DNA of 64,000 nt from Saprospiraceae bacterium (GTDB lineage Bacteria > Bacteroidota > Bacteroidia > Chitinophagales > Saprospiraceae), in assembly GCA_020628475.1 (NCBI GenBank), contig JAHDFB010000010.1, positions 1 to 64,000 of the forward strand. The letters run 5' to 3'. Both the position numbers and the translations under genes were made by a program. The notes below the pieces were generated by a model. That model saw nothing but the letters and a program-made list of their open reading frames with translations, had not been told where the DNA came from and made no database searches. Shown here piece by piece: positions 45,959 through 55,012 of the stretch (position 1 is the first letter of the stretch; the number at the start of each line of letters is the position of its first letter).

Positions 45959-47275
45959 TTAAGGATTTGCGGGTTTTGGCATATAATAAAGAACGACACG
46001 ATTATTTTTAACAAAGTATTTTTTGGCCGCTGCCATAATATCTTCTTTCGTTACGGCCAAATATCGATTCAATTCTGAATTTACGCGAGAAGCATCGTCG
46101 AAATAGGTTTTTGAACTGGCAAGATTCTCTGCTACACCTGCAAGACTTGCATTCTGATTAATCAAATTTACTTCGATCTGATTTCTTAATTTCTCAAATT
46201 CTTGATCGGACATCAACTCCGTTTGAATTTTGGCGACTTCTGCATCCATCCCTGTTTCTAAAACGTCTGGATCAATTCCACCATTTACAATTCCAAAAGA
46301 TAAAACAACCCCGGGATCTTCTAAGCCGAGCGGGAAACTCCCTACGAATAAAGCTAATTGTTGATCATCGACCAGTGATTTATTAAATCGAGAACTTTCT
46401 CCTTGGGATAATAATTGCGCGGCCATATCTACAGCGTAATAATCTGGCGAATCCAATCCAACCGTTCTATATATCTGTACAACTGCTGGTAATTGAATAT
46501 TGTCATAAATCGTATCTCGTACTTCTGCTGTCAGTGGTGCAGGTCTCTTATTTGGGCGTGGAATTTCCCCCACTCCTTTTGGAATAGAACCGAAATACTT
46601 TTCCACCAAAAGTTTGGTTTCAGTATATTCGATATCACCAGCTACTACCAATACGGCATTATTTGGCACATAAAACGTCTTATAAAAATTCTTGTAGTCT
46701 TCTTCCGTTGCCGCATCCAAATGTTCCATGGAACCGATGATTGGCCAACTATAAGGATAATCTGGATAAGCACGTACCATTGATTCTTCCAGAATAGAGC
46801 CATATGGTTGATTGTCCGTTCGTTGTCTACGTTCTTCTTTAACGACCAAGCGCTGTGTCTCAACACCTTTCGTATCAACAATGGCATGCATCAATCGCTC
46901 TGATTCCAACCATAAGCCTAGTTCTAATTCGTTGCTTGGTAAAATCTCGAAATAATACGTTCGGTCAAAACTGGTGTTGGCATTCAACGTACCTCCTGCC
47001 GATTCCACATAACGTGAATATTCTCCTCTTGGAATATTCTTGGAGCCTTCAAAAAGTAGATGCTCGAAGAAATGAGCAAATCCTGTTCTATCTGGGTTTT
47101 CGTTCTTCGAGCCAACATGATACATGATGGATACAGATACGGTTGGACTGGTATTATCTTGATGCATGATGACATCTAAACCATTATCCAATTGAAATTC
47201 TTGATATTCTATATTTAACTGAGCTATTGAAACTAGTCCAGCAAAAATGAATATCAGTGAGAGTATGATTCTCAT
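45959..47275 (-). CDS. M16 family zinc peptidase (catalytic partner)
   Basis: TGFAHFFEHLLFEGSKNIP (HxxEH); start at MRIILSLIFIF. Confidence 0.92.
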   Translation of the reverse strand: MRIILSLIFIFAGLVSIAQLNIEYQEFQLDNGLDVIMHQDNTSPTVSVSIMYHVGSKNENPDRTGFAHFFEHLLFEGSKNIPRGEYSRYVESAGGTLNANTSFDRTYYFEILPSNELELGLWLESERLMHAIVDTKGVETQRLVVKEERRQRTDNQPYGSILEESMVRAYPDYPYSWPIIGSMEHLDAATEEDYKNFYKTFYVPNNAVLVVAGDIEYTETKLLVEKYFGSIPKGVGEIPRPNKRPAPLTAEVRDTIYDNIQLPAVVQIYRTVGLDSPDYYAVDMAAQLLSQGESSRFNKSLVDDQQLALFVGSFPLGLEDPGVVLSFGIVNGGIDPDVLETGMDAEVAKIQTELMSDQEFEKLRNQIEVNLINQNASLAGVAENLASSKTYFDDASRVNSELNRYLAVTKEDIMAAAKKYFVKNNRVVLYYMPKPANP

Positions 47276-47401
47276 AATTGCAGTTTTGTGAGTAAAAGAA
47301 TGCCACAAAATTACAACATGAAGTCCTTATGGACAGAAATCTCCGATAAAACCGAACGATACGTCGATCAAAGCACTTAATATTTAAGAATTCAATTCAT
47401 T

Positions 47402-47863
47402 TTAAACTCCAAACTGTCTCAAATGATGATCCAAATGTTTGGAATATAAGGTATTCCACTCTTTGACAGATAACTTCCCAAAAGAATGAGATTCGCGCTG
47501 ATCATAATGAGAGGTTCCTAAATCGTAGGTCTTTTGAAGGTAGGAAATCAACCTCGATTTTTCTTTCTCAAAATCGCGTTCATCAGAAATCATGAAAACC
47601 GGTGCAGTTCTTCCATTTTTAGGATATGGTTTCGGGCCAACCACCTGTTGCTTAGCGAATAATTTTATCATAAACCGTGCAAATGCATTGGGACGAGGAT
47701 GAATATTCTCGTGATCCAATTCATAAGCTACGCAACAATGAGCCAACATTTGAGCAACATGCATTTTACCCCATAGAGGCGTCGTGTCATTGCTTAGTTG
47801 ATTTATCCTATCAAATGTATGTGCTAGTTCCTTCGGATCGAACAGATTCGCATATTGATTCAT
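47402..47863 (-). CDS. DUF1569 / DinB-like protein
   Basis: LWGKMHVAQMLAHCCVAYE ... HSFGKLSVKEWNTLYSKHLDHHLRQFGV. Confidence 0.8.
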   Translation of the reverse strand: MNQYANLFDPKELAHTFDRINQLSNDTTPLWGKMHVAQMLAHCCVAYELDHENIHPRPNAFARFMIKLFAKQQVVGPKPYPKNGRTAPVFMISDERDFEKEKSRLISYLQKTYDLGTSHYDQRESHSFGKLSVKEWNTLYSKHLDHHLRQFGV

Positions 47864-50046
47864 TAATAACCTGGATTTTGTTGTAAACCTGGATTAGCTG
47901 CTAAATCATTAGAAGGAATAGGGAAAATATTTCTAAATGGTTCTGTTTTCGCCCCTTCCATGACATTGCCTTTCCACTGCCAAAGGTAATCCCCATCCGT
48001 GAACTGACCAAATCGAACCAAATCTGTACGTCTGTGGCATTCCCAATACAATTCTTTCGCTCGCTCATCTAATATGACATCTAGATCTAGGGCATCCGCC
48101 GTAATATTTCCAGAGGTAGTCGAATACGCTCTTTCTCGTAATGCATTAAAATATCCCAACGCTTCTTCCTGAGAGCCATTTGCTCCCCGAAGAATTGATT
48201 CTGCCGCCATCAAATAAACGTCGCCCAATCGAAACATAGGAAAATCAGTGTCTGGAAAATCTAAATTGGATCCAGGTAATCCATCACTCGTAACATTTTT
48301 AAACTTGGTGACCGCATATCCTTCCGTAAATTCAACGACATCCTCAATATCCAAATTATGCCCCTCGCTGTAGAAAATAGCTCTTCTATCAAAGGAATTT
48401 AAATCAATTTGATAGGTATAATCTGGTTTATCCATATATAAGTAAATCGTATAACTCTCTGCCTCGTCGATAATAATATCTCCGCCATCATATTCTAAAA
48501 GGCCATCCTGTTCTGCATCTCCTAAATGTACGTCCCAAGAACCATTACTTCTGAATTTCAAACCTCCTGCCGATAAGTCCAATTGAACATAAAAGGCATT
48601 TAACTCAGGATCATATTCCATTTCTGTATCGACAGAATTTCCATTTGGGGTTGCATCTCCTATCAGACTCCATTCTCTTCTTTCAAATTCATAAGAATCA
48701 TCATTCAGATCAACACGGACGTAGTATAAACCTGCTTCGCCTAATTTAATATTATCACCATTTACTTCTAAAATTCCGTCGCCATCAGAATCTCCTAAGA
48801 TTTGAGGATTTGATCCAGGGAATTTAGTGATAAAAAATTCTCCACCATCATCTGGAAAATATACATGTCCTTCATAGACTTTATCAGCCAGCATCGATGT
48901 TAACGAAAAGTCCGTATCCGTGGCATCAAAATTCTGTGTAGAATTCGGAATATAGATTTTAGGGTAACTGCCCGTTTGACCTTCGTTGGAAGCGATATAA
49001 ACGCCACCTCCCGGAGGAAATTTCTCAACCAATTGACGAGTTGTTCGTACACCTCCCCATCCATTAATGACGCCCGATTCATCGGCTGGCATATCACCAC
49101 CTATCGCTGCACGAATAATAAAGGTCATACCACCCCAAGTTCTGGTATTGTTCCCGTCAAAATTCACAGGAAAGATAATCTCTGGAGATGTATGGTTATC
49201 TGCCAAGAATAGATTTGGATAACTTGGATCCAATGTATAACCGGCATCAATGACTTTCTTACAATAGTCTAATGCTTCTTGATATTTCTCCTGATCAATA
49301 TATACTTTGGCATTCAAATACAATTTTGCCAATAATACCTGAACAGCTGCCTGATCCGCTCGACCATATTCATTCATTCTGGCAGGAGTTATGGTATTTT
49401 CAATTTCTTTTAATTCCGATTCGATGTAATTGAATAAATCTTGAGGACTGGCTTGCTTCGGGAAAAATGAACCTACTGGATCATCTTCTGTAACAAAAGG
49501 TACATTTCTGAATAAATCCAATGCATGCCAATAACTCAATGCTCTAAGAAATCTGGCTTCTGACCGATATAACTCTATATCTGCTTTGAGGTCTGACTCA
49601 ACACCGCGTTCATCCAGCACATTCGGTTCTGTTTGACGAATAAATTCATTACAAAGCGTAATTTGATATAAAATTCTGCTGTAATGCGCATAAATAAAAG
49701 CATCCGATGCGCTCCAGGTTTGAGCGTGAAAATCTTTAATGGTTTGATCATTCCAACCGACTAAGGCCTCCTCGGTAGTGAATTCTTGATGGTAAAAATA
49801 ACCACGTAGATATTGCCCAAATCCTTCATCCAATCCGCTAATATCACTTTGACCTGCAGGACCTTCTTGACCAGATACGGCTAATCCAGCATATAATTTG
49901 GCGAGCACACCCAAATAGCTATTAGGATCATCATAAACAATTCCTGAGGTTACTAAATCATCATCCAATGGACTCGTATTTAAGTCTCCAAAACAAGAAC
50001 TTAAAAACAAGGCAACTAAAAGTATAAATATATATTTCATCTTCAT
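47863..50046 (-). CDS. RagB/SusD family protein with inserted SusE/F-like modules
   Basis: SusD N- and C-terminal signatures (EARFLRALSYWHALDLFRNVPF; LDERAKELYWECHRRTDLVRFGQF); internal SLIGDATPNGNSVDTEMEYDPELNAFYVQLDLSAGGLKFRSNGSWDVHLGD. Confidence 0.88.
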   Translation of the reverse strand: MKMKYIFILLVALFLSSCFGDLNTSPLDDDLVTSGIVYDDPNSYLGVLAKLYAGLAVSGQEGPAGQSDISGLDEGFGQYLRGYFYHQEFTTEEALVGWNDQTIKDFHAQTWSASDAFIYAHYSRILYQITLCNEFIRQTEPNVLDERGVESDLKADIELYRSEARFLRALSYWHALDLFRNVPFVTEDDPVGSFFPKQASPQDLFNYIESELKEIENTITPARMNEYGRADQAAVQVLLAKLYLNAKVYIDQEKYQEALDYCKKVIDAGYTLDPSYPNLFLADNHTSPEIIFPVNFDGNNTRTWGGMTFIIRAAIGGDMPADESGVINGWGGVRTTRQLVEKFPPGGGVYIASNEGQTGSYPKIYIPNSTQNFDATDTDFSLTSMLADKVYEGHVYFPDDGGEFFITKFPGSNPQILGDSDGDGILEVNGDNIKLGEAGLYYVRVDLNDDSYEFERREWSLIGDATPNGNSVDTEMEYDPELNAFYVQLDLSAGGLKFRSNGSWDVHLGDAEQDGLLEYDGGDIIIDEAESYTIYLYMDKPDYTYQIDLNSFDRRAIFYSEGHNLDIEDVVEFTEGYAVTKFKNVTSDGLPGSNLDFPDTDFPMFRLGDVYLMAAESILRGANGSQEEALGYFNALRERAYSTTSGNITADALDLDVILDERAKELYWECHRRTDLVRFGQFTDGDYLWQWKGNVMEGAKTEPFRNIFPIPSNDLAANPGLQQNPGY

Positions 50047-50066
50047 TTTTGTTCTATTATCTATGA

Positions 50067-53030
50067 TTAAATTTGAATGCTTAGTCCTAATAAATATGTC
50101 CTAGCTCTAGGATATAAATTATTATCTATTCCTAAATTGGTTTCAGGATCCAATCCCGTATAATTCGTAAATACAATCGGATTTTGAACGGTTGCATATA
50201 CTCTAAAATACCTCTTGGTCAATGGCGTGAAATCATATCCAAGGGTAAAATGATCAAATCGTAAGAATGATGCATCACGAACAAAATGATCACTAAAAGT
50301 AAGATTAGCTTGTTGTTCCACATTGTTATCAATGGCTGCCTGATGCACATTAACAATTACGCCAGAAGGATTATATAAACCAGCCAATGCTCCAATATTT
50401 GTTTCAACGTTATTATACATTTTGTTACCTACATTCGCTCTACCAGCGAACGAGAAATCAAATTGCTTGAAATTCAAATTACTCGTAAATCCAAAAATAT
50501 ACTTTGGAAAAGGATTTCCAGCTCGATATTTATCTTCCAAAGTAATCATGCCATCATCATTTCGATCTACAAATTCGCCTTCTATAATAGTACCATCGTC
50601 ATCATACTTTTGTTCATACACATAGAATGAATTTGGCGTAAAACCAACACTATGTACTTGTATTTGACTTCCGACCCCACCGGCAACACCTCCAGTTAAT
50701 ATTCCAACGTACGTCGAATCTTCTGAGGTATTTAACTTGATAATCGTACTTTCATTATAAGCCATATTTGCTCCGATATTCCACCGGAAATCTTTGGTTT
50801 TCACAGGTGTGTAATTCAATGAAAGTTCTACTCCTCTACTCACCATATCTCCAATATTGGTTACAATCTCATTGGTCAAATTAGAACCACCAGGGACCGT
50901 AATATTATTTAACAGGTCTTTTGTAAATCTTCTATAAACATCTACTGAACCATCCAATCGGTCTTTAATGACATTAAAATCAGCCGCTATATTGACCGTA
51001 GAAGTCTCTTCCCATTTAATATTTTCGTCATATCCATTCGGTCGAATCGTAGTCACATAACGATCACCAAATTGGTATTGTGCTGTTTCAAATCCTGTCT
51101 GATAAATTCCTTGATAAGCATACAGTCTAGATCCTCGTCCAATATCCTGTTGTCCAGTGACTCCCCATCCTGCACGAATTTTCAAGTAGTTGAAATATCT
51201 GCTATTCGATTCCAACACTTTATAAGCAATACTTGCTGCTGGAAATAATCCCCACCTATTTTCAGGAGAAAATCGTGAAGCACCATCTCTTCTTAAAGAT
51301 ACATTCGCGAAAAGTCGATCATTAAAACTATATTGTGCTCGACCAAATAATGAAACTAAATATAGCTCTTCTTTATTTTCATCCTCCACCGTTTCTGTTG
51401 GGCTTCCGGCACTATCTGAATTTTTGAAATCACTCTGCCAATAAAAGTGTTGCCAAGAATATCCGGCCATGACATCAAATCCATGTTTCCCGAAGTCTTC
51501 TTTATAGTTTAGAAAACTTTCCCACAAACTGTTTCTTGAAACGGAGCTATACTGATTATTTACACCTCCACCGGTATCGGCATCAAATGCAAAAGCAGCA
51601 ATATCTGGAACAACCACCGTACCGTTTCCAGTTGAATAGTCATAGGCTAAATTAAGATTAGCACGTAGAGCTTTCAAGAATGGCATTCTATAATCTACAT
51701 TAACAGATGAAATGTATCGAGCTACTCTCGAATCATCACTTTTTAATTCCAATAAAGCCACCGGATTGGTAGGCGCCAATTGATTCGGAAATCCTTGCGT
51801 ACCGGCAGTCCAAGTCGTATATCCTCCATAAGGAGAATTTTCATCAAGAACAGCTTTAGTGGGATCAAATGAAACTGCATTTCCTATCGCTCCTCGATCC
51901 GCAAAATGATTTCTATTAAAACTACTTTTAAAATTAGCTTTTACTTGAAGTGTATTATCCAAAAATCCTGGTGTCAAACTGATCGCTGACGTGATTCTGT
52001 TAAAATTATCGGTTTTAAGGACTCCATTCTTGTTTGTGTAACCCAAAGAAACACGATAGGGAATTCCAGAAACACCACCTGATAAACCAAGATTGTGATC
52101 CGTACTAAGCGCTGTTCTGTAAATTTCACTTTGCCAATCGGTGCTTTCATCTCCCAATAATTCTAATGCAGGATCTCCTTCCTCATAGCGTTCTGATATA
52201 ATTGATCTAAATTCATCTGCATCCAACACATCAACTCGTCTCGTATTTGATGAAGAAGCCACATTAGCATTATAGCTGACTTGAATCTTTTTATTAATAT
52301 TTCCTTTTTTCGTAGTAATTAAAATGACACCGCCAGAAGCCCTACTTCCATAAATAGCCGTAGCAGATGCATCCTTTAACACTGTAAATGTTTCAATATC
52401 ATTCGGATTGATAAGATTTAACGGATTTCTTGAGCCTGAGGGGCCTCCATTATCGATAGGAACATTATCTATTATAATTAATGGAGCGTTCGAGGCCTCC
52501 AAAGAAGAAAGTCCACGTATTAAAATGCTTGCTCCACCACCCGGCCCCGGGTCGGTTGTTATACTGACTCCAGCAATTTTTCCAGCCAACAATTCTTGTG
52601 GACTCGTGATGGCACCTTTATTAAATTGTTCCGTACTGACAGAAGCAATCGATCCGGTCGCATTCTCTTTTTTGACCGTTCCGTATCCTACAACAACGAT
52701 ATCTTCTAAAACTTCACCAGAATTTAAAGCGACATCAATGACCGTTCGTCCATTAATTGGGATCTCCACAGTGGCATATCCAGTAAAACTAACCACTATA
52801 CTCGTGGCAGAGTTAGGGACTTCCAAGCTATATTTACCATCTATATCTGTAATCGTTCCAACAAAGGTTTCTCCTTGCACAACCACGTTGGCGCCAATTA
52901 ATTCGGTACCATCAGTAGCATCGGTAACCAGTCCAGTAATGGTAGTCTGAGCAACCGCAAATAAGGGTATCAGAACCAATAACATTGCTAAATTGAAGCT
53001 TTTAAGCAAATAAAATTTAGTAGGATTCAT
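50067..53030 (-). CDS. SusC/RagA family TonB-linked outer membrane protein
   Basis: ITGLVTDATDGTELIGANVVVQG, plug GSRASGGVILITTKKG; C-term LYPRARTYLLGLSIQI; start at MNPTKFYLLKSF. Confidence 0.94.
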   Translation of the reverse strand: MNPTKFYLLKSFNLAMLLVLIPLFAVAQTTITGLVTDATDGTELIGANVVVQGETFVGTITDIDGKYSLEVPNSATSIVVSFTGYATVEIPINGRTVIDVALNSGEVLEDIVVVGYGTVKKENATGSIASVSTEQFNKGAITSPQELLAGKIAGVSITTDPGPGGGASILIRGLSSLEASNAPLIIIDNVPIDNGGPSGSRNPLNLINPNDIETFTVLKDASATAIYGSRASGGVILITTKKGNINKKIQVSYNANVASSSNTRRVDVLDADEFRSIISERYEEGDPALELLGDESTDWQSEIYRTALSTDHNLGLSGGVSGIPYRVSLGYTNKNGVLKTDNFNRITSAISLTPGFLDNTLQVKANFKSSFNRNHFADRGAIGNAVSFDPTKAVLDENSPYGGYTTWTAGTQGFPNQLAPTNPVALLELKSDDSRVARYISSVNVDYRMPFLKALRANLNLAYDYSTGNGTVVVPDIAAFAFDADTGGGVNNQYSSVSRNSLWESFLNYKEDFGKHGFDVMAGYSWQHFYWQSDFKNSDSAGSPTETVEDENKEELYLVSLFGRAQYSFNDRLFANVSLRRDGASRFSPENRWGLFPAASIAYKVLESNSRYFNYLKIRAGWGVTGQQDIGRGSRLYAYQGIYQTGFETAQYQFGDRYVTTIRPNGYDENIKWEETSTVNIAADFNVIKDRLDGSVDVYRRFTKDLLNNITVPGGSNLTNEIVTNIGDMVSRGVELSLNYTPVKTKDFRWNIGANMAYNESTIIKLNTSEDSTYVGILTGGVAGGVGSQIQVHSVGFTPNSFYVYEQKYDDDGTIIEGEFVDRNDDGMITLEDKYRAGNPFPKYIFGFTSNLNFKQFDFSFAGRANVGNKMYNNVETNIGALAGLYNPSGVIVNVHQAAIDNNVEQQANLTFSDHFVRDASFLRFDHFTLGYDFTPLTKRYFRVYATVQNPIVFTNYTGLDPETNLGIDNNLYPRARTYLLGLSIQI

Positions 53031-53143
53031 CAAAATTAATTTAATATTTTTATTGACTATTCGCGGTAAAAATAAAAATTTATATGTACTTTGCGTCATA
53101 TTGACAATAACTTATTTAATTACACTTACTAAAATGAGATAAA

Positions 53144-54904
53144 ATGAATGTACGTCTACTATTAATGGCTCTTTTTAGCTTTCTATTTTTGACAGGCTAT
53201 AGTCAGAGCATTGGAATAATTGGTGACGCCACTCCTGGTGGTTGGGATGCAGATACTGACATGACACAGGATCCTGACAACGCCGACCTATTTACTATTG
53301 ACATCACATTGACAAATGGAGCCGTTAAATTCCGTCAAGATGACGCATGGGACATCAACTGGGGGTCTGTAGATTTCCCTACTGGTACTGGAGAACAAGG
53401 CGGTGCTAATATTCCTGTATTTGCAGGTGATTATTCCGTTTGGTTTAATATTGCCACAGGAGAATATTCTTTCACCGTACAATCGGATATTGGAATTATC
53501 GGAGATGCTACTTCCGCCAATTGGGACTCTGATATAGATATGTATCAAAATCCTGATAATCCTGACAAATATTTCACCATCCTTGATTTAACGGTCGGAG
53601 AAGCCAAATTTAGACAGGATGATGCTTGGGATATTAACTGGGGTAGCTCAGATTTTCCGACTGGAACAGGTGTTATGGGAGGTGATAATATTCCCGTTGA
53701 CAAAGCTGGTGAATACATGATTGATTTTGATAAATCAACAGGTGAATATTCTTTCGGTGAAGTTATTACCTTTAGTTCTATTGGAATTATTGGTGATGCA
53801 ACTCCTGGCGGATGGGATAGCGATACCGATCTAATGCAAAGTGCTGCTGATCCAAATGTTTGGTCTGCGAATCTTACCTTAACTGATGGTGGTGCTAAAT
53901 TCCGAGCAAATGATGAATGGGTCATTGATTGGGGTGGAACGGATTTCCCTTCAGGCGTTGGTGTACAGGGTGGTGACAATATTCCAGTTGTAGCGGGAGA
54001 ATACAAAGTCAGTCTAAACACGGAAACAGGAGAATATAACTTCCAAGAAATTGTGGATTACGCTACTGTTGGTATCATTGGTGATGCCACACCGGGTGCA
54101 TGGGATAGTGACACGGATATGGAAAAGGACGAAATGGATGGTTCCATGTGGTCTTTACGTATTATCTTAACAGATGGAGAATTGAAATTCCGAGCAGATG
54201 ATGATTGGGCCGTTAATTGGGGATCTGGAGATTTCCCAACTGGAATAGCTGAACAAGATGGTGCTAATATTCCAATTCCTGCAGGAGAGTATATTATTAG
54301 CTTCAACAGTGTAACTGGTGAATATAATTTCGAAGAGATTGTTGTATACTCAACGGTTGGTATAATAGGGACTGGATCTCCGACCATGGGTTGGGATGAT
54401 GACACCGATATGATTAAAAATGCGGATAACGAGTTCCTTTTTGAATTAGAAGCCACTTTAGTAGATGGAGAAGTTAAATTTAGAGCAGAAGATGATTGGG
54501 CTGTAAATTGGGGTGCTGAAGAATTCCCTGACGGTGTTGGTACTCAAGATGGACCAAATATTCCAGTTACTGCTGGAACCTATGCAATATCATTAGTCAC
54601 TGATACCGGAGAATATAGTTTTGCTACACCAGATGCAACGAAAGAATTTTTAAATCCTGCTTCTGTAAAACTATATCCGAACCCAGCTGTCGGAACCATT
54701 CGATTAGATGTGAATGATGATCGACTTAGTGGAGATATACAAGTAACGATCTTAAATATGAACGGTAAAATTGTTGCAGAAAATTCAATAAATACCTTTA
54801 CTAATAATTCTATCGATGTTCAACACTTACAAGCTGGACATTATATGGTTAGACTTCAGGCAGAAAATGCTTTAGTCGGTAAAAAATTAACTATTGTAAA
54901 ATAG
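53144..54904 (+). CDS. Secreted protein of five SusE/F-like modules with T9SS type A sorting domain
   Basis: Five copies of (I/V)GIIGDATPGGWDSDTDM...KFRxDDxWxxNWGxxDFPTG...GGxNIPxxAGxYxxxxxxxTGEYxF; C-term LYPNPAVGTIRLDV. Confidence 0.88.
   Translation: MNVRLLLMALFSFLFLTGYSQSIGIIGDATPGGWDADTDMTQDPDNADLFTIDITLTNGAVKFRQDDAWDINWGSVDFPTGTGEQGGANIPVFAGDYSVWFNIATGEYSFTVQSDIGIIGDATSANWDSDIDMYQNPDNPDKYFTILDLTVGEAKFRQDDAWDINWGSSDFPTGTGVMGGDNIPVDKAGEYMIDFDKSTGEYSFGEVITFSSIGIIGDATPGGWDSDTDLMQSAADPNVWSANLTLTDGGAKFRANDEWVIDWGGTDFPSGVGVQGGDNIPVVAGEYKVSLNTETGEYNFQEIVDYATVGIIGDATPGAWDSDTDMEKDEMDGSMWSLRIILTDGELKFRADDDWAVNWGSGDFPTGIAEQDGANIPIPAGEYIISFNSVTGEYNFEEIVVYSTVGIIGTGSPTMGWDDDTDMIKNADNEFLFELEATLVDGEVKFRAEDDWAVNWGAEEFPDGVGTQDGPNIPVTAGTYAISLVTDTGEYSFATPDATKEFLNPASVKLYPNPAVGTIRLDVNDDRLSGDIQVTILNMNGKIVAENSINTFTNNSIDVQHLQAGHYMVRLQAENALVGKKLTIVK
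53210..54640 (+). repeat. Five tandem ~93-97-aa SusE/F-like repeats
   Basis: Repeat starts at 53210, 53489, 53780, 54068, 54356 (periods 279, 291, 288, 288 nt). Confidence 0.9.
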
Positions 54905-54979
54905 AATCACAAATGAAAGGCCTGAACGTCAAGTCAGGATCAAGGTATTAATGCCCCTTTTAAGGCAATACTAACTAGG

Positions 54980-55012
54980 GCTATTCAGCGTCATGCTGAA
55001 TAGCTTTTTTTG
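54980..55012 (+). terminator. Rho-independent terminator
   Basis: GCTATTCAGC-GTCAT-GCTGAATAGC followed by T8. Confidence 0.88.

Follow-up and report, generated by a model that had tools for sequence, protein, structure and literature searches.

A SusD protein of Saprospiraceae with a SusE/SusF-type double module inserted in one loop, and loss of most stacking tryptophans from the insert in one clade

In the main nutrient importer of Bacteroidota, SusD serves as the moving lid. SusE and SusF (PDB 4fch, 4fem, 4fe9; PF14292 and PF16411) are lipoproteins in their own right, with an Ig-like domain at the N terminus, whereas in the SusD protein encoded in the 64,000-nucleotide stretch of DNA analysed here as a whole (the window) only their last two modules are found, inside the SusD chain; the module fold is common to both, and the stacking Trp residues of SusE/SusF are shared with the relatives of the window protein. 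Two adjacent X25 modules likewise occur in Sca5/Sas20 of Ruminococcus bromii (7rpy), and starch binding by such modules rests on stacking Trp residues, two per module in Sca5; unlike the window SusD, these are Firmicute scaffoldin proteins, outside any transporter lid (PMC9112005). A loop close to the sugar site also varies among the alpha-glucan SusDs of marine Flavobacteriia, which fall into looped and open types, the loci of the looped type regularly encoding a SusE; the loop of about 17 residues is reported there with no domain insertion, whereas that of the window protein holds two modules (PMC11093988). No account of SusE modules inside SusD was found among open-licence full texts of the literature.

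The gene of interest and the parts of its product are located in the window as follows:
47866..50046, minus strand: susD, 727 aa, with a lipoprotein signal (Cys18), scaffold residues 21-343 and 553-727 and insert residues 346-551
48394..49011, minus strand: inserted double SusE/SusF-type (X25) module, residues ~346-551
48673..48966, minus strand: module 1, residues 361-458 (~98 aa), alignable with the first module in 27 relatives
48403..48672, minus strand: module 2, residues 459-548 by these coordinates (459-551 by the limits of the insert), with PF16411 over 461-551

The membership of the protein in the SusD/RagB family (PF07980, PF14322) is given both by Pfam and by the fold. SusD_RagB was matched at residues 571-727 (6.7e-32; 111.8 bits against a cut-off of 23.1), together with a weak match to SusD-like_3 at residues 108-244. 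In the PDB the protein retrieved 3jys of Bacteroides vulgatus (1.4e-107) and the SusD of B. thetaiotaomicron (3.4e-84), and these SusDs covered it from residue 21 or 37 to 343 and again from 553 to 727, with nothing aligned between. The AlphaFold2 model of the full protein, computed from an input alignment of 61 sequences, had a mean pLDDT of 90, and its scaffold superposed on 3jys with Z 51.5 over 455 residues and on the B. thetaiotaomicron protein (3ck7-3ckc) with Z 48.7, at 40-45% identity. The lipoprotein Cys18 is invariant in the 61 sequences, and a SusC gene lies directly upstream.

The sugar site is preserved. Residues R81, W98, W330 and W304 of the window SusD correspond to the sugar-site residues R81, W98, W320 and Y296 of the B. 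thetaiotaomicron protein; W330 aligns with W320. Across all classes of relatives R81, W98, D100 and W330 vary little or not at all and position 304 holds an aromatic residue, as in starch-type SusDs. The window protein is a SusD lid protein, presumably of the alpha-glucan type. As placed by sequence, the insert begins 14 residues past W330, within the variable loop downstream of the sugar site. This loop comprises 47 residues in B. thetaiotaomicron SusD, 14 in 3jys and about 209, two modules included, in the window protein.

The insert itself was recognized as a member of the SusF_SusE/X25 type by a PF16411 match above threshold in the Pfam scan of the whole protein (residues 461-551, 33.7 bits against a cut-off of 27.5) and by its fold. 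The model of the excised segment (352-552) reached a pLDDT of 96.2, and its best structural matches were SusF 4fe9 (Z 11.8) and SusE 4fch/4fem (Z 11.5) of B. thetaiotaomicron, both modules being matched together over 174 (SusF) and 172 (SusE) of 201 residues; Foldseek gave E values of 2.6e-5 to 7e-5 against SusE/SusF. The next matches were the X25 starch-binding domains of Sca5 (Z 11.0) and of amylases. The insert lacks PF14292, the N-terminal domain of SusE, so that it does not amount to a SusE protein. The structural Gly, Asp and Tyr positions of the modules are kept. In 44 insert-less relatives the same loop measures 3-18 aa versus 190-219 aa in two-module homologues. Since the sequence, a confident structure model and the 44 insert-less relatives agree, the segment is confirmed as a true two-module insertion in one SusD loop. 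An assembly artefact is ruled out by the single unbroken reading frame of the segment and by the recurrence of the insert in more than 100 sequences, and the gap in the PDB alignment, together with the SusD fold comparison, excludes that it belongs to the ordinary SusD fold. The original prediction of a SusD with inserted SusE/F-like modules was thus borne out by the Pfam match, the folds and the insert-less relatives, and the comparison of structure models which it proposed led to SusF/SusE and not to the normal SusD fold; the segment had been placed at 48370-48920, which is smaller than its true span, and of the two modules, both present, the first had been given by its second half only, whereas it is a full module.

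The two-module architecture is not unique to the window and is common to many genomes, which lowers the novelty originally implied. In the family of the window, Saprospiraceae, a SusD match was obtained in 112 of 199 genomes. The ~727-aa form, with 50-73% identity along its full length, is found in about half of the 112, and most of the others have an insert-less form of ~525 aa, with the break at 345/551. Nearly all of the best 80 loci (contigs, one genome per species) bear the insert, including some from the Bacteroidales Mariniphaga, Draconibacterium, Prolixibacteraceae and Lentimicrobiaceae. In a sample of 395 genomes of the phylum the two-module form was confined to the window's own family, and about 12 genomes from other families contained frames 600-670 aa long, which fit a single module; those inspected carry one. 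This sample and the insert-less Saprospiraceae forms rule out an insert ubiquitous in SusDs, and the survey of SusD architectures in the 199 family and 395 phylum genomes agrees with the earlier expectation that it is not general. Loop lengths fall into discrete classes of 3-18, ~100, 190-219 and ~328 aa. The relatives used are mostly metagenome-assembled genomes. SusDs of ~640 aa with one SusE-type module in the same loop were observed in the phylum survey (L196-L205), the single module being a first-type one in family f24 and a second-type one in some f5 genomes (L199, L200), and two Mariniphaga SusDs of ~853 aa (L183, L186) carry three modules in the order 1-2-2, again in the same loop.

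Upstream of susD the window contains two further genes:
50067..53099, minus strand: susC, SusC/RagA-type TonB-dependent transporter (TIGR04056, 9.9e-218), the actual start probably being at 53030
53144..54904, plus strand: divergent gene of a secreted protein of 586 aa, here protein T (PF16411, 1.6e-33; Por_Secre_tail, 1.5e-15)

Protein T consists of five repeats resembling module 2, which start at residues 23, 116, 213, 309 and 405 and carry the module-2 Trp motifs, followed at 510-584 by a sorting tail for type IX secretion. The likeness between the insert and these repeats, already noted from the window, holds for all five, each being matched by the module-2 profile with E values from 7e-13 to 2e-17. 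Comparison of the loci showed two arrangements. In 57 insert-bearing loci susC and susD are accompanied, usually directly downstream, by a SusE of ~345 aa with PF14292 and two C-terminal modules. Thirty SusE-less insert-bearing loci contain instead a T of ~600 aa with about five repeats and, in those examples scanned, the type IX secretion tail; it is divergent from susC in 28 and co-directional in two. A few loci have both SusE and T, with T downstream, and T was found beside none of the 44 insert-less susD genes. In a tree computed by a quick method from the SusD scaffold, with the insert left out, the SusE-less loci group together in a single clade of 37 that includes the window (SH-aLRT 100) and whose sister is formed by SusE-bearing loci, some with T downstream. 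A whole-genome search detected PF14292 in 15 of 15 genomes of the SusE type and in one of 26 genomes of the window's clade, where the match was weak and lay far from susD; completeness exceeds 90% in 25 of the 26, and the window's own genome, in which the domain was not found, is 61% complete. In the window's clade SusE is therefore missing from the genome and not merely from the operon.

Downstream of susD, between 43780 and 47863, the window shows a DUF1569/DinB-like gene, the start codon of which overlaps the susD stop (base 47863), and then two genes named by eye from their sequence as M16-type peptidases. No carbohydrate enzyme is adjacent to the window susD; GH13 genes are present elsewhere in its genome, and the largest neighbour cluster of the loci includes GH13 members. 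A gene of family GH53 (endo-beta-1,4-galactanase, by Pfam) was observed near or directly downstream of susD in 14 of 81 loci (among them L038, L039, L040 and L044), an odd neighbour for a SusD of the starch type. In the sister genome G043 (locus L035) susC is split into three open frames, by assembly error or decay. No RNA family was found in 46000-55000.

Judged from sequence, the insert and the final two modules of the adjacent SusE in the relatives are homologous: the insert profile matched this module pair from end to end, with E values down to 7e-80, and the mean identity between an insert and the C-terminal pair of the SusE of the same operon is 49%. The closest relative of 98 of 100 inserts is another insert, therefore the transfer must be old; the same figure leaves concerted evolution of the insert with its same-operon SusE unsupported as a rule. 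At a few loci (L164, L175) the SusE modules have their nearest match in a SusD insert and not in another SusE, a possible exchange. The tree of module pairs requires four changes of label and the scaffold tree at least seven changes of the insert, three of them forced by well-supported branches, which means that more than one exchange, gain or loss took place; a single gain without loss is ruled out by the latter count, and losses or repeated gains have to be assumed. The ancestral operon was likely susC-susD(insert)-susE, and the order on the scaffold tree suggests a path in which T joined this operon (C-D-E to C-D-E-T) before SusE was lost and T relocated.

The difference between the two groups of loci extends to the residues on which binding depends. 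Outside the clade both Trp pairs, W373/W412 of module 1 and W470/W504 of module 2, are intact in 55 of 61 insert-bearing sequences. Inside it the pair of module 1 is intact in none of the 37 sequences and that of module 2 in ten, and 23 retain none of the four residues. In the profile alignment W373 falls on W192 of SusE and W470 on W296 (chain index + 29). SusE W192 is presumably a residue with a role in binding. The insert of the window has F373, S412 and N470 in place of Trp and keeps W504 alone, neither module having a complete pair. The loss is not an effect of the alignment, since the total number of Trp residues per insert also falls, from 6.6 outside the clade to 2.6 inside it (6.5 in SusE pairs). 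At equal scaffold identity (0.60-0.65) the inserts are 37% identical inside the clade versus 51% outside, so that the insert appears to diverge faster there. Yet it has been kept at full length in all 37 sequences, and because none has lost it, it probably does something. The merging of glycan-binding functions in one protein, proposed for the window, therefore fits the insert-bearing lineages outside the clade, whereas with one Trp of four left glycan binding by the window insert appears doubtful; likewise SusE-type modules do reside in SusD, but without replacing the separate SusE at the 57 loci outside the clade.

The explanation we prefer, with a probability of about 0.64, is that a SusE-type module pair sits in the SusD loop, that the window insert binds weakly or not at all and serves for spacing or protein contact, and that capture is left to T and the SusD site. 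The insert would most likely have originated as an arm for starch capture, built into SusD beside its sugar site. In lineages with the complete operon it may act as a second built-in capture site, riding on the moving lid and holding the chain near the mouth of the transporter, together with SusE. The window's clade has lost SusE and has a type IX-secreted, five-module T encoded beside susC, and its insert has lost most of the stacking Trp residues and diverged faster. In the window bacterium the insert would most likely be retained in a worn-down or repurposed state, serving for spacing or protein contact, capture having passed to the secreted T and the intact SusD site. This shift of capture to T, with the insert decaying or taking another role, is deduced from one clade-level event: SusE loss, T gain and Trp loss coincide in a single lineage and count as one observation, not 37, since all 37 members share that descent.

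It is tempting to extend this to a broader reading, possible though on the whole doubtful, in which the loop beside the sugar site of alpha-glucan SusDs is a recurrent acceptor of zero, one, two or three SusE modules of either type, the capture layer can move among a free lipoprotein, the lid and a type IX-secreted protein, and in the clade capture has passed from SusE and the lid to T and the insert has a new non-binding task, such as docking T.

That the window insert is instead a working starch-binding arm, through W504, F373, Tyr and Lys/Asn residues, and that SusE became dispensable since SusD bears its modules, seems unlikely. The insert is full length throughout the clade and its modelled fold is intact; module 2 may still bind, because W504 survives and the sister L035 keeps both module-2 Trp residues, and Phe at 373 could stack. 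However, the absence of any complete module-1 pair, the 23 sequences devoid of all four Trp residues and the faster divergence speak against it, and the coexistence of SusE with the insert in 57 loci indicates that at these loci the insert did not suffice to make SusE redundant.

Still less probable is a switch of partner, by which the insert would now attach T (or a different surface lipoprotein) to SusCD: T was seen only in insert-bearing loci, where it replaces SusE in the neighbourhood, and among loci with T but without SusE none was found to lack the insert, but the argument is drawn from gene neighbourhood, and a few loci have T beside an intact SusE, where a new dock would be unneeded. 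A neutral remnant heading for loss is highly improbable, since in spite of the Trp loss, the faster divergence and the insert-less SusDs nested among insert-bearing ones outside the clade, which suggest that losses do happen, none of the 37 sequences has lost the insert, its structural Gly, Asp and Tyr positions are conserved and its fold is predicted with confidence.

It is debated whether the starch-capture proteins form a stable utilisome with SusD or a transient complex (PMC7618045). A lid with covalently attached capture modules offers a natural experiment on this question, as a single protein tests the usefulness of capture next to the lid, and the close relatives of the window protein provide, for direct comparison, SusDs that have none, one, two or three modules or decayed ones.
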